Source: Desulfococcaceae bacterium HSG9
GTDB lineage: Bacteria > Desulfobacterota > Desulfobacteria > Desulfobacterales > JAUCGF01
Reading direction: 5' to 3'
Length of the DNA: 64,000 nucleotides
NCBI GenBank assembly: GCA_030378005.1
Contig: JAUCGF010000091.1
Span: 1 to 64,000, forward strand
A program made the position numbers and the translations under genes. Shown here one piece after another: positions 12,848 through 19,798 of this stretch. Below the pieces are notes generated by a model. It did not search any database. It was not told where the DNA came from and worked only from the letters and a program-made list of their open reading frames with translations. Position 1 is the stretch's first letter; each line of letters starts with the position of its first letter.

Positions 12848-13128
12848 CAATTTTTCAGTTATACTGAGCGAGGTCATAATTTGGGATTTTTCAATTTTTG
12901 CATATTTGCATCAAAAGCCGGCGATGATTACACGATTTATATAATCTGCCGCACGGACGACGGCGACCGCCTCACCGTCACCGTTATAGTCTATCCAATC
13001 GCAGACGGTATTTTACCCACTCTATCGACTACGATATCACTTCCATCCCCATCCAAACTCGTTTCCATATTCCACTTATAAACAGCTTAAAGCCATAAGC
13101 ATTCGGATCAATATGAACCTGTTGTATC
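12848..13128. other. Intergenic stretch without a recognisable gene
   Basis: This is the middle of the 588-bp divergent space between the purine operon and the glycan locus. A short open frame at 12881-13081 has no recognisable homology, no ribosome binding site and a low-complexity middle (GACGACGGCGACC). I see no RNA gene or repeat in it. Confidence 0.5.
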
Positions 13129-13147
13129 ATTTCAGGCCACCTGAAAT
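13129..13147. promoter_or_regulatory. Inverted repeat, candidate enhancer-binding-protein site
   Basis: ATTTCAGG-CCA-CCTGAAAT is a perfect 8-bp inverted repeat with a 3-bp spacer. Its right edge is 77 bp upstream of the sigma-54 -24 element, the usual distance for an upstream activator sequence bound by an AAA+ enhancer-binding protein. The binding protein is unknown. Confidence 0.5.
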
Positions 13148-13223
13148 AATGCGACTGTATGTCCTGGAAAACTTAATTGGCTATAATCCAGGCTATTGCG
13201 TGATTATGACACAAAATTTAAAT

Positions 13224-13239
13224 TGGCATGATAATTGCA
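13224..13239 (+). promoter_or_regulatory. Sigma-54 (-24/-12) promoter of the glycan locus
   Basis: TGGCATG-ATAA-TTGCA matches the RpoN consensus TGGCAYR-N4-TTGCW. The invariant GG (13225-13226) and GC (13237-13238) are exactly 10 bp apart. It reads toward the PglF-like gene, with a predicted start near 13250. An ATG at 13228 lies inside the promoter and cannot be the translation start, which supports 13318 instead. Confidence 0.8.
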
Positions 13240-13317
13240 CTATCAGTAAGTGGCAATAATGACGACTCGATGTTTGCTTCAATCTGCAACTTATCTCTGA
13301 AAGGGCTTCTATCAACC

Positions 13318-15216
13318 ATGAATTTGGATATAAATATTAAAAATCGCAATTTCTGGTTTATGACAGCCGGTGATACATTACTTATTATCATGGCCTATTA
13401 TGTTTCTTACTACCTGCGTTTTGACGGTAAGATCACTTTAAAAGAACTGGAAACTTTCAAAACAACCATTATTGGGATTGCGCCGCTCAAACTGGCGGTC
13501 CTGTATTTTTTTGGCTTATATAAAGGGATGTGGCGGTATGCCGGCATTCACGATTTGATTGAATTGATGAATGCCAACGTTGTATCCACGGGTTTCATTA
13601 TGGCAATAATTTTTATAACGCACCGTTTTATAGGTTTTTCGAGAGGTGTGTTCATCATTGATTTGATGCTGTGTTTCTTGCTCTTAGGCGGCTTCAGGCT
13701 GATCGTGCGCTTATTTCTCGGTTATCGAAAAGCTGTCAGCCCAAACTTGTTCACAACGTCTAAGAACACCGGCGGTTATAAAAATATCCTCATCATCGGA
13801 GTCAGCAATATGGGAGAAAATCTGGTTCGTGAAATCAGAGAAAATCCTCTGATGAAATACCAGGTACAAGGATTCGTAGATGATGACCCTGCTTTTTTAA
13901 AGCAGGAAATTCACGGTAGTCCGGTACTTGGATGTATTCAGGATATCAGACAAATTGTAAAACGGTTTCATATTGATGAAATAATTATTGCCGTTTCATC
14001 CGCTTCCGCATCCGAAATACGACGAATTGTTGATATTTGCGAGAAAACTTCACTTCCTTACCGAACAATCCCCAATATTGATGAGCTGATAGAAGGACGT
14101 ATAACGCTAAAAGATATTCGGGAAGTGCGCTATGATGACCTGTTGGGAAGAAAGCCCGTCCGTCTTGATTCCAAACGCATCGGCAATTATTTGAACGGCA
14201 AAAATATTTGGGTGACAGGTGGTGCCGGTTCCATCGGTTCGGAACTTTGCCGGCAAATTGCCCGTTTTGAACCGGCGAATTTGATTATTATGGATCAAAA
14301 CGAATCCGCCTTAAATTCGGCGGAACTAAATCTCAATGCAGCCTTTCCGCATTTAAAAATCACACCGTTTCTCGGTTCTATTGTCAGGCAGCGTCAGATG
14401 AAACAAGGGTTTGATGCGTTCGCTCCGCAGGTTGTGTTTCATGCTGCGGCTTATAAACATGTGCCTGTCATGGAGCGTCATCCCTGGGAGGCGGTGTATA
14501 ACAATGTGATCGGCACACGCAATCTCCTTGAAGTTTGCTGTCAATGCGGTGTGGAACGCTTTGTCCTCGTTTCCACAGACAAAGCGGTGCGGCCCACCAA
14601 TGTGATGGGTGCCTCCAAACGTGTGGCTGAACAGTTTACAATGGCTTACAATATGCAAAATGGCGCCAGATATATGGCTGTCAGATTTGGTAATGTTGTC
14701 GGCAGTAGCGGCAGCGTCGCGCCGTTGTTTCAAAAACAGATTGCCGAAGGCGGCCCGGTGACAGTCACCCATCCTGAAATCAACCGTTATTTTATGACCA
14801 TACCGGAAGCTTGCGGACTGATTCTTCAGGCTGGCTCTATCGGCCTGGGCGGTGAGATATTTGTTTTAAAAATGGGCATTCCGGTCAAGATTGCCGATAT
14901 GGCGCGGGATATTATTAAGCTGCACGGTTATACGCCTGGCAAAGAGATTGAGATTAAATACACGGGGCTCCGGCCTGGCGAAAAGCTGTACGAAGAATTG
15001 ATTACCGATGAAGAGAATATTCAAAATACAATTCATAATGATATCATGGTTTTAAATTCTGATCAACATAAATCTTTAAGTCAAATGAACAGTTATTTGG
15101 GCAAATTGATGGAATTCTCGTTAGCCGGAGATACGACAGGAATAAAAATGTATTTTAAAAAAATCGTGCCTGAGTATTCGCCTTGGTTTGAAAATGCGGA
15201 AACAAAAGGTTGTTAA
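13318..15216 (+). CDS. Membrane-bound nucleotide-sugar 4,6-dehydratase (PglF/WbpM/CapD type)
   Basis: A 632-residue polysaccharide biosynthesis protein. The N terminus has four hydrophobic segments within about residues 12-135, followed by a CoA-binding-like Rossmann domain (LIIGVSNMGEN, about 157-168). The C-terminal half is an extended SDR: GGAGSIGSE (about residues 302-310) binds NAD(P), and STDKA followed by MGASK marks the UDP-GlcNAc C4,6-dehydratase group. The product would be a UDP-4-keto-6-deoxy-HexNAc, the first step towards bacillosamine or QuiNAc-type sugars; the PglE-like aminotransferase at 42874 could use it. The ATG at 13318 is used because the upstream alternative overlaps the sigma-54 promoter. 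First gene of the locus. Confidence 0.88.
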   Translation: MNLDINIKNRNFWFMTAGDTLLIIMAYYVSYYLRFDGKITLKELETFKTTIIGIAPLKLAVLYFFGLYKGMWRYAGIHDLIELMNANVVSTGFIMAIIFITHRFIGFSRGVFIIDLMLCFLLLGGFRLIVRLFLGYRKAVSPNLFTTSKNTGGYKNILIIGVSNMGENLVREIRENPLMKYQVQGFVDDDPAFLKQEIHGSPVLGCIQDIRQIVKRFHIDEIIIAVSSASASEIRRIVDICEKTSLPYRTIPNIDELIEGRITLKDIREVRYDDLLGRKPVRLDSKRIGNYLNGKNIWVTGGAGSIGSELCRQIARFEPANLIIMDQNESALNSAELNLNAAFPHLKITPFLGSIVRQRQMKQGFDAFAPQVVFHAAAYKHVPVMERHPWEAVYNNVIGTRNLLEVCCQCGVERFVLVSTDKAVRPTNVMGASKRVAEQFTMAYNMQNGARYMAVRFGNVVGSSGSVAPLFQKQIAEGGPVTVTHPEINRYFMTIPEACGLILQAGSIGLGGEIFVLKMGIPVKIADMARDIIKLHGYTPGKEIEIKYTGLRPGEKLYEELITDEENIQNTIHNDIMVLNSDQHKSLSQMNSYLGKLMEFSLAGDTTGIKMYFKKIVPEYSPWFENAETKGC

Positions 15217-15242
15217 TCGCTCATTCAGGAGCAAACGCCACT

Positions 15243-16769
15243 ATGTTTGATATCATAGAAACAAGCATAAAAAATTCTGATAAAATCGCCCTGGGATTAA
15301 GCTGTTTTATTTTGGTTACAATACCGGCAATCTTTGGCGCGGTTCAACCCGGTGTCCTGTTTTTTTACACAGGCTGCATTTTTATATTGTTTTTGCTACG
15401 CTTATGGTCTGAGCATCATCAATTCCAACTATTGACAGCGCCAGGGGTAATTATTCCGGGCATTACTTTTCTGATTATCACATTAATACAATGTTTACCG
15501 TTGCCACTCGCTATGCTCAAATATTGCAGCCCTGTGCGCTATCATCACCTGGTTTCATCCGGCGCGTTGCTTGGTATGAAGGATAACAGTTGGCATTCGA
15601 TTAGCTATAATCCTTATGAATCGCTGGCATGGCAGGCATTTATATTAAGTCTCTTTTTATTTTTTCTGATGATGCGGGAATACTGCTCATCGTCCCGAAA
15701 GTTGATTTTAATCGTCAGACTCATGCTGGCTGTGGGTGTTATTGAATCATTATACGGACTGATTCAGGCATTGGAGCCGTCGGTCGGTGTACTCTGGTCA
15801 GACCGATATAATCATGGCCTGGCCCGCGGAACATTTATCAATCGCAATCATTTTGCCGGCTTTATTGGGATGGTCTGGCCCCTTGGATTGGGTTATATGT
15901 TGAGTCGTCAAAATTTTTATCAAAGCCATACATCAAAACAGCATGCGCAACCAATGCTAAAAAATATTCTCGTTTCAGCGCAATTTAATCTGCTCATTAT
16001 TTATGTTTTTCCATTGACTATGATGTTGTTGACTTTGATTTTTTCCAAATCGCGTACAGGTATTGTCAGTATGGCGGTGGCCGTTTTCACTTTTATGGGG
16101 CTTGCATATTATCAGAAAAGAAAAACGTCTCCGGTTTTCCGGATTTTTGGCGGTGCGACGATTGTGCTATTAATTTTTTACAGTTTAAGAATGGGCCTGG
16201 GGTCAATAGCAGAACGCTTTTTGAAACTGGCTGATGACACGAGCCGCATCTCTATGTGGAATGATGGCCTGACCCTGTTAAAAGACCATCCGCTTGGTAT
16301 CGGACTTAACAATTTTAAACAGGTGTTTCCGATTTATCGCGTCTTGTCCGATCCTTTTGCCGGCCGCGCCATTCACCTGCACAACGATTACTTGCAATTG
16401 CTGATTGAATCCGGCTGGCCCGGCTTTGTCATTTTAACAGGTGGGTTTTTGAATTTTTTAGGCCGCAGTTGTTATAAACTGCATATTTTTAAAGGCAGAA
16501 AGCATAATTCTCAGATGTTGCTTGCCATTGGAGCTATAAGCGGTTTGATTTCAATGGCTTTTCACAGTTTTACAGATTTTAACCTTCAAATTCCGGCTAA
16601 CGCTCTATATTTTGTAACGCTTTTAGCAATTGTTCATGGCTGTTTATCACAAAATGAATCCAATTATAAGAGGAGGAAAAATTATGTTAATCATCAGAAA
16701 CACGCAAAACCTGAAAATGTTTATTGTCATCTTAATACTCGTATTGCCAGCTACCGCTTATGGCGATAA
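15243..16769 (+). CDS. O-antigen ligase/polymerase family membrane protein
   Basis: A 508-residue, strongly hydrophobic protein with about ten or more membrane segments. It has the large periplasmic loop and the RGTFINRNHFAGF and AIHLHNDYLQLLIESG segments typical of the Wzy/WaaL O-antigen ligase family (PF04932). It would polymerise glycan repeat units or ligate them to a carrier on the periplasmic side. AGGAG lies upstream of the ATG at 15243. The C-terminal 29 or so codons overlap the start of the next gene in another frame and end in a basic tail that does not look conserved, so the natural stop may have been lost. Polymerase and ligase cannot be told apart by sequence alone. Confidence 0.82.
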   Translation: MFDIIETSIKNSDKIALGLSCFILVTIPAIFGAVQPGVLFFYTGCIFILFLLRLWSEHHQFQLLTAPGVIIPGITFLIITLIQCLPLPLAMLKYCSPVRYHHLVSSGALLGMKDNSWHSISYNPYESLAWQAFILSLFLFFLMMREYCSSSRKLILIVRLMLAVGVIESLYGLIQALEPSVGVLWSDRYNHGLARGTFINRNHFAGFIGMVWPLGLGYMLSRQNFYQSHTSKQHAQPMLKNILVSAQFNLLIIYVFPLTMMLLTLIFSKSRTGIVSMAVAVFTFMGLAYYQKRKTSPVFRIFGGATIVLLIFYSLRMGLGSIAERFLKLADDTSRISMWNDGLTLLKDHPLGIGLNNFKQVFPIYRVLSDPFAGRAIHLHNDYLQLLIESGWPGFVILTGGFLNFLGRSCYKLHIFKGRKHNSQMLLAIGAISGLISMAFHSFTDFNLQIPANALYFVTLLAIVHGCLSQNESNYKRRKNYVNHQKHAKPENVYCHLNTRIASYRLWR

Positions 16770-17512: not shown

Positions 17513-19798
17513 ATGTCTTTAAAAAACAATGGAAATCATCCTTTTCATAACACTGATTTGGAACCGGTTTCATCTTCAAAACATCTTCCCTCGACAGACT
17601 ACTACGAAGAACGGGCCGAATGGGATGAAGAAACCCTTAATCTACGCGACTATCTTGACGTTATTATCCGGCGTCGATGGCTGATTATCGGCATCGTTTT
17701 TTTCAGCTTCATCACCACATTGATCTATTCGATGACTTTGACCAAGCTTTTTAAATCATCGGCTACCATCGAAATAGCACCTCAAACACCAAAAGTGACC
17801 AAATTTGATGAAGTCGTCGCATCTGAAATACATCAACGTGATTTTCTGGAAACTCAAGTGGCGCTATTGCAAAGCAAAACACTGATTTTAAGGGCTATAA
17901 AGAAAATGGGGTTTCCCGACAATCCGTTTGTTGCCAAGTCCGCTTCTGATGGAAAGAATCAAGAGGCGACGGGGCGGTTAAAACAAGTAATCGAATTTTT
18001 CAAACCTGATACCGATGAAAAAGAAACAACTCCCTCACTTTTAAGCGAAGCCCTGATACAACAAAAACAACTGGCGTATTTTCAAAACAATTTGAGTATC
18101 ACACCGCAAAAAAATTCCAGGCTGATAACATTGACATTTGTCTCATCTGACCGCTTATTATCCCAACAAGTTGTGAACACATTGGCTGATGAATATGTTT
18201 TGTGGGAAATGGATAAAAAACTGCAAGCCTCGGACTTTGCCCAACAGTTTCTGAAAAAACAGATTGAACGCGCCAAAATTGTTCTGGAGAAATCGGAAGA
18301 AGAACTCAATCGCTTTGCCCGATTGGCCGGTATTGTTTCTTTGGATGCCAAATTAAGCAGTGTTTATTCTCAATTAGAAGTGCTTAACGCTGATTTGGCA
18401 CACACCGAATCAGAATTAATATTAAAAAAAGCAACCTATTTTCAGGCCGCCCAGACAGAGCCGTCTAATTTGCCCCAGGTGTTGGCAAGCGAAATGATTG
18501 CTAAACTAAATATCAAATATTCAGATTTGCTGGCTGAATATGAAAAATTGGCCGTTTCTTTCCGTGATAGTTATCCTCAGGTGAAAGCTGTCAAGTCACG
18601 CATGGCCAGTATCGCAGACCGGATCAATTTGGAAGAACATAAAATATTCAAAGCGTTGCAAAGCGATTACAGCATTGCTTTGGAAAAAAAACAGGCTATG
18701 CAGGAGCGTGTCAACGAACAAAAAAAACGCGCGCTGGAGTTAAATGAGAGAGCAACCCAGTATAAAATTTTAGCGCGTGAGGTGGAAACGAACAAGGGCA
18801 TCTATCAAAGTCTGTTGGAAAGAGCCAAAGAAATTGAATCCATGGTGGGGGTGTCCGCCAGCAATATTTATATTGTTGATCGCCCTTCAATTCCGATTTA
18901 TCCGTTCAAACCGCGCGTGCGTTCCAATCTTCTTTTGGCATTGGTTATCGGGCTTCTATGTGGCATTGGAGCAGCATTCGCCCAAGAATATTTTGCCGAT
19001 ACAATCACCAATCCAGAACAAATCAGCGGCCGTTTTCAAATTCCGATATTGGGGGTGGTTCCATTGATTAAAACGGATGGTGGCATGATTGAAAAGATTT
19101 TTCTTGCTGATTCACGGGCGCCGCTTACCGAATCAATACGCACTGCCAAAGTATCCATTCAACTTTCGGGGACCGATTTGAAGACCTTTTTAATAACCAG
19201 TACTGCTCCATCCGAGGGTAAAACCACGCTGGCGTCGAATTTGGCGTTGGCGTTCAGCAGCGCGGGCGAGAAGGTCATTTTAATTGACGCCGATCTGCGT
19301 AAGCCTCGCCTTCACAAAATATTTACAAAGGACTTTTCAAATGGTCATTCCGGTCTGTCGAGCTTTCTGGCCGGCGTGAAGGAACAATGCCCAATACGTT
19401 CCGATGAGGCTGAAAATCTGGAAATTGTCTTTGCAGGCCCTATTCCCCCTAATCCGGTGGAATTACTGGCTTCAGGACGTTTTCAACAATTAATGGCGGA
19501 TTTGGAAGAACGTTATGATCGCATTATTCTGGACGCTCCGCCGCATCACGGCTTTGCCGATATTCTGGTATTATCACAACGTGTCGATGGTGTCATTTTG
19601 GTTGGCAATATGGGGAGTACGACCCGCACGGCCGTACGTCATTTCAAAACAGGCATGATGAACGTTAATGCTTCTATCCTCGGGTGCATTATAAATAAAG
19701 TCAATCTTACTAAAAGATACGGCTATAACGCCTATTACAAATATTATCAAACGTATAGCTATAGCGACAAGAGCGCTAAAGAACTGGAAATAACATGA
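17513..19798 (+). CDS. wzc: Wzc-type polysaccharide copolymerase with BY-kinase domain
   Basis: A 761-residue fusion of a Wzz/GumC chain-length determinant and a CpsD-type tyrosine autokinase. TM1 is at about residues 56-76. A long coiled-coil periplasmic part follows (about 215-435). TM2 is at about 467-490 after the proline-containing YPFKPRVRS segment. The cytosolic kinase has Walker A SEGKTT (about 567), Walker A' LIDADLRKP (about 593) and Walker B ILDAPP. The C terminus is a tyrosine cluster (YGYNAYYKYYQTYSY), the autophosphorylation tail. It regulates polymer length and export in the inner membrane. An AAAGGTG site precedes the ATG. No Wza-type outer-membrane exporter is in the window. 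Confidence 0.92.
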   Translation: MSLKNNGNHPFHNTDLEPVSSSKHLPSTDYYEERAEWDEETLNLRDYLDVIIRRRWLIIGIVFFSFITTLIYSMTLTKLFKSSATIEIAPQTPKVTKFDEVVASEIHQRDFLETQVALLQSKTLILRAIKKMGFPDNPFVAKSASDGKNQEATGRLKQVIEFFKPDTDEKETTPSLLSEALIQQKQLAYFQNNLSITPQKNSRLITLTFVSSDRLLSQQVVNTLADEYVLWEMDKKLQASDFAQQFLKKQIERAKIVLEKSEEELNRFARLAGIVSLDAKLSSVYSQLEVLNADLAHTESELILKKATYFQAAQTEPSNLPQVLASEMIAKLNIKYSDLLAEYEKLAVSFRDSYPQVKAVKSRMASIADRINLEEHKIFKALQSDYSIALEKKQAMQERVNEQKKRALELNERATQYKILAREVETNKGIYQSLLERAKEIESMVGVSASNIYIVDRPSIPIYPFKPRVRSNLLLALVIGLLCGIGAAFAQEYFADTITNPEQISGRFQIPILGVVPLIKTDGGMIEKIFLADSRAPLTESIRTAKVSIQLSGTDLKTFLITSTAPSEGKTTLASNLALAFSSAGEKVILIDADLRKPRLHKIFTKDFSNGHSGLSSFLAGVKEQCPIRSDEAENLEIVFAGPIPPNPVELLASGRFQQLMADLEERYDRIILDAPPHHGFADILVLSQRVDGVILVGNMGSTTRTAVRHFKTGMMNVNASILGCIINKVNLTKRYGYNAYYKYYQTYSYSDKSAKELEIT

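Follow-up and report, generated by a model that had tools for sequence, protein, structure and literature searches.

A conserved candidate sigma-54 promoter and upstream site array preceding a surface-glycan locus in an uncultured Desulfobacterales genome

The glycan locus in the 64,000-nt window (the whole stretch of DNA that was analysed) is probably transcribed from a sigma-54 promoter that would be opened by an NtrC-type enhancer-binding protein (EBP) on an upstream array of sites. Because the same array marks promoters of chemosensory, cell-wall hydrolase, LRAT-domain and TPR genes, the locus would belong to a regulon shared with chemosensory and envelope functions.

A conserved -24/-12 element precedes the glycan locus

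An earlier note on this DNA reported TGGCATG-N4-TTGCA with GG-N10-GC spacing, and the element is present as described. The GG (13225-26) and GC (13237-38) of TGGCATGATAATTGCA are separated by 10 nt in a TGGCAY-N5-TTGCW context, and this is the sole perfect match to TGGCAYR-N4-TTGCW in the window, where the reversed control gave none. The 6.6-Mb draft genome contains 83 matches to the pattern and 5 to its reversed control. Ten of the 83 sit inside MITE-like repeats, and without them the excess over the control is still more than 10-fold. The genome encodes a single RpoN together with some 30 EBP-family activators of sigma-54. The promoter and the genes that follow it are:

13224 to 13239, forward strand: sigma-54 -24/-12 promoter TGGCATGATAATTGCA (pattern match, genome excess, congener conservation)
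13318 to 15216, forward strand: first gene, membrane Polysacc_synt_2 nucleotide-sugar dehydratase (CapD/WbpM-like), 632 aa (Pfam; homologue starts)
15210 to 16769, forward strand: Wzy-type O-antigen polymerase/ligase, overlapping the first gene (Pfam PF04932; also the next gene in the congener)
17513 to 19798, forward strand: Wzz/GNVR chain-length determinant with a kinase domain (Pfam; kept in the congener)
20174 to 44088, forward strand: further glycan locus with PseB/PseC-like proteins, a PseG/acetyl/formyltransferase fusion, a NeuB family protein, glycosyltransferases, a sugar transferase, an ABC protein and others (Pfam; putatively on the same transcript)

In order to determine which parts of the region are conserved, we compared it with one congeneric genome, G001 (a Desulfobacterales MAG, contig JAOZRC010000119.1). 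The promoter core in G001, AAATTGGCATGATAATTGCA, is identical to the focal core at 20 of 20 bases, whereas the sequence upstream of it is 58% identical over 108 aligned columns, so that in this one congener the core is kept while its flanks drift. The first glycan gene is 84% identical, and the three genes after it are shared by both genomes (70-85%); the upstream neighbour of the operon differs between the two genomes. Taken together, TGGCATGATAATTGCA reads as a genuine, conserved sigma-54 promoter, far beyond chance expectation, and its position predicts a transcription start near 13250. The leader between promoter and start codon in G001 (C854, L113) contains about 140 extra bases with inverted ends visible by eye, possibly an insertion.

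Judging from its gene content, the locus encodes a surface glycan that probably contains a pseudaminate-type sugar. The ATG at 13228 lies within the promoter, which rules it out as the start if the TGGCATGATAATTGCA promoter is used, and homologues of the first gene begin near 13318. The probable gene start is thus corrected from 13228 to 13318. Between 15000 and 34900 there are 27 terminator-like matches compared to 16.3 in shuffles, counting both strands. In other families, where the first gene has orthologues of 44-53% identity, no strong -24/-12 element was found in the upstream regions that could be compared, a set without several loci, including the closest (L069 and L070).

Upstream sites match an array that recurs at four further sigma-54 promoters

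Three stretches upstream of the promoter can be read as copies of a 15-bp palindrome, roughly GTNTCANNNTGANAC:

13105 to 13119, no strand: array site 1 GGATCAATATGAACC, centre 13112 (-112), containing TCAATATGA at -116; same placement at four further promoters of the sigma-54 type; matrix score 5.5
13123 to 13139, no strand: array site 2 TGTATCATTTCAGGCCA, centre 13131 (-93), including the left arm of an inverted repeat; conserved in the congener and in register; score 7.2
13141 to 13155, no strand: possible array site 3 CTGAAATAATGCGAC, made up of the inverted repeat's right arm and its flank; weak score of 2.8

When the conserved left arm was scanned over the sigma-54 upstream regions of the genome, matches of 13 out of 16 bases were found at five promoters, compared to 0.6 expected, and three of those five, along with a fourth, have in common a 17-mer, TGACCTRTTATGATACA, near -76. 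In these four promoters (C61, C70, C76 and C159) the TCAATATGA element lies at -116 or -117, and the focal promoter has it at -116. Genome-wide, CAATATG-N(100-114)-TGGY-N7-TTGC occurs in exactly five places, namely the focal promoter and those same four (control, 0).

We then built a scoring matrix from the C61, C70, C76b and C159 promoters as seeds, leaving the focal sequence out of the training. Two of the four seeds, C61 and C76b, are near-duplicates and so not independent, and C159 and C70 are also alike. In the seeds, GTNTCANNNTGANAC-type sites are centred at -112, -93 and -69. The focal promoter has sites centred at -112 and -93, with a weak site near -76 in place of a strong one at -69, and because the strong -69 site is missing it is a variant rather than a full array member. 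Its (-112, -93) pair scores 12.7, fifth after the four seeds, and site 2 is the top non-seed match of the 17-mer matrix across the 329 kb scanned. Another promoter, L037 (C20), is also an array member through its (-93, -69) pair.

The sigma-54 promoter could be real while its likeness to the other arrays is due to chance and the EBP site lies elsewhere. We regard this as unlikely, although it is the strongest of the competing explanations. The focal sites are weaker than those of the seeds (5.5 and 7.2, compared to mostly 11-16), the -69 site is absent, and many comparisons had been made before the likeness emerged. Set against this are two sites in exact register, at a score that random genome positions reach at a rate of 5.7e-5 (a background for one promoter), and a steep drop to the next promoters, with L037 at 4.0 for the (-112, -93) pair and every other promoter below 0. 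Site 2 is also conserved in G001. Site 1 retains only AATATG there and the possible site 3 is not kept; the array of the C159 chemosensory operon is conserved.

Among 387 other Desulfobacterota genomes, two contained a match to the site pattern, neither with a sigma-54 promoter match around it, and both are probably chance occurrences. Elsewhere in the focal genome, two copies of the array site lie 24 nt apart at L224 6756-6796 (C3); here the sigma-54-like promoter, TGGCATTATAATTGCA, has them on its downstream side instead of upstream.

The inverted repeat spans two adjacent candidate array sites

The earlier note had also described an 8-bp inverted repeat 77 bp upstream of the -24 element and had read it, together with the promoter, as driving the glycan locus, with an EBP switching the glycan on. 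The repeat is present:

13129 to 13147, no strand: inverted repeat ATTTCAGG-CCA-CCTGAAAT with 8-bp arms; its symmetry alone is not beyond chance

About 9% of upstream regions, when shuffled over 200 nt, contain an equally good or better palindrome, as do 21 of the 79 real ones. In G001, the left arm together with the six bases 5' of it (TGTATCATTTCAGG) is kept at 14 of 14 positions and the right arm is lost, thus this extended left arm, and not the palindrome, is the conserved unit. The inverted repeat is best described as spanning the junction of two adjacent sites in the longer predicted array. As a recurring regulon motif, for which the earlier note had proposed a genome search, it was rejected, as the exact palindrome is found once in the genome. 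No terminator or known RNA was found around it, and there were no Rfam matches anywhere in the window. Upstream of the promoter region, a short stretch of the window (12849-12918) recurs at several genome sites and in the congener as a dispersed repeat.

That the palindrome is instead the sole, dedicated site of an EBP acting at this promoter only is improbable, more so than a chance likeness of the arrays. Its perfect arms, lying 77 nt before the -24 element, would suit such a switch, but G001 keeps the core and left arm without the right arm, equally good palindromes are common in shuffles, and the shared array accounts for the left arm as well as for bases beyond the palindrome. The interpretation in the earlier note is partly supported. 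Control by sigma-54 and an EBP at the head of the locus is well supported by a genome that encodes RpoN and EBPs, by the conservation of the core and by upstream sites in the right register; the inverted repeat falls away as the regulatory unit.

A sigma-70 promoter overlapping the region (ATGACA-N18-GATAAT, 13206-13235) could in principle drive the locus and agrees with the consensus at 10 of 12 positions; we consider it very unlikely, given that chance accounts for matches of this kind (5 compared to 3.3) and that its -35 element is not conserved in G001, where the sigma-54 core is identical. Least probable is that the -24/-12 match merely came with a MITE-like dispersed repeat. The repeat-borne matches mean that a perfect match alone is no proof, but the focal site has no repeat termini, is kept with the same operon in G001 and carries the array.

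The MITE-like repeats themselves are about 190 bp long, with TATAGTCATCGGATTTTGGTTTGT...ACTATA ends and a perfect -24/-12 match just inside one end, and they could spread sigma-54 promoters:

L048, L129, L136, L137, L139, L150, L152, L155, L034 and L061: MITE-like repeats around -24/-12 matches

A -24/-12 match also occurs in another family of repeats, which has TATAGTATTCC ends (L143 1550 and L156 1502), and a dispersed 24-bp palindrome, approximately RTGAARCGTGAATTCACGYWTCAY, lies near several sigma-54 promoters (L035, L132, L135 and L224 (C3)).

Comparison with known activators and their sites

Under the favored interpretation, sigma-54 RNA polymerase would be held closed at 13224-13239. 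An NtrC-type EBP bound to 15-bp sites centred at -112 and -93, and perhaps also near -76, would reach it by looping and open the promoter. Transcription from about 13250 would then read the glycan operon from 13318.

PrsR was the sole one identified when ten EBPs were named by NCBIfam. The PrsK/PrsR-sigma-54 system controls PEP-CTERM genes through a TTTACA-type box (PMC1569441) and resembles the present case in that control by an EBP and sigma-54 is tied to extracellular polysaccharide (PMC1569441). Unlike PrsR targets, the focal promoter has no such box, the 17-nt sequence ending in TTTACA being absent from both strands of 13000-13223. PrsR, which is encoded in this genome, is probably not its activator, since PrsR boxes are recognizable at other promoters in the genome and missing here. 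A PrsR/PEP-CTERM-like box (GTGTCAAYAAAYTTTACAA or part of it) lies about -90 from the -24 element at L040 140, L133 139 and L146 1524, with a partial copy at L140 86.

The gene for PspF adjoins the C159 array, and PspF was rejected as the activator because no comparable sites are found near the pspA promoter. A search of the literature for a VpsR box returned nothing. At L159 (C194), a CCACCCTCAATATATTGAGGGTGG palindrome lies at -95 of two promoters beside an EBP gene and is likely the upstream activating sequence (UAS) of that EBP.

In Vibrio fischeri, SypG and sigma-54 control the syp symbiosis-polysaccharide locus through the UAS TTCTCANNNTGMDWN (PMC10162802, citing Ray 2013). The system is similar in its EBP, sigma-54 promoter and polysaccharide locus, and in a palindromic TCA-N3-TG core in the upstream site. 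The flanks of the focal site differ, with only the core TCA-N3-TGA common to GGATCAATATGAACC and the SypG UAS, and the focal array differs further in being common to chemosensory and cell-wall genes. The sigma-54 regulome of Desulfovibrio vulgaris is large, with cell-exterior genes (flagella, chemotaxis, EPS, cell wall) as its biggest group, and its chemotaxis and EPS promoters are among those without a predicted UAS (PMC4641369, PMC3333781). It is like the control predicted here in that sigma-54 governs cell-exterior genes.

The array marks chemosensory and envelope genes

The C159 array precedes genes for CheB, CheW and CheA (the last read from the sequence rather than from Pfam). At C76a, a response regulator gene (assigned by Pfam) has a site at -226, and the ORFs after it look like CheC, CheR and CheW. 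Genes for two cell-wall hydrolases, an M23 peptidase and an MltC-type transglycosylase, follow the C70 array. The C76b array is followed by a gene for an LRAT-domain protein, and the C61 array by genes for a small protein that has no match in Pfam and for a TPR protein. The signals suggested in the earlier note, surface contact or nitrogen/carbon state, gained no support from these data; the genes that share the array suggest chemosensory signalling and remodelling of the envelope.

We infer that the array is an EBP binding site and that one EBP would serve all of its members, the focal promoter included. The best reading of the glycan locus is as a member with weaker sites in a candidate EBP regulon common to chemosensory and envelope genes. 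We give roughly even chances to the fuller proposal that a single activator reading GTNTCANNNTGANAC arrays co-activates the chemosensory operon, the cell-wall hydrolases and the pseudaminate-type glycan, as a previously undescribed EBP regulon of uncultured Desulfobacterales. Sigma-54 control of cell-exterior genes is already known from other systems (PMC3162934, PMC4641369), and the present case adds to the evidence for it; the candidate regulon is new. A single promoter sighting thereby becomes a testable regulon, in which the glycan locus and a chemosensory operon appear under one activator in an uncultured lineage of sulfate reducers. If this is correct, chemosensory signalling and the surface glycan would be switched on together.
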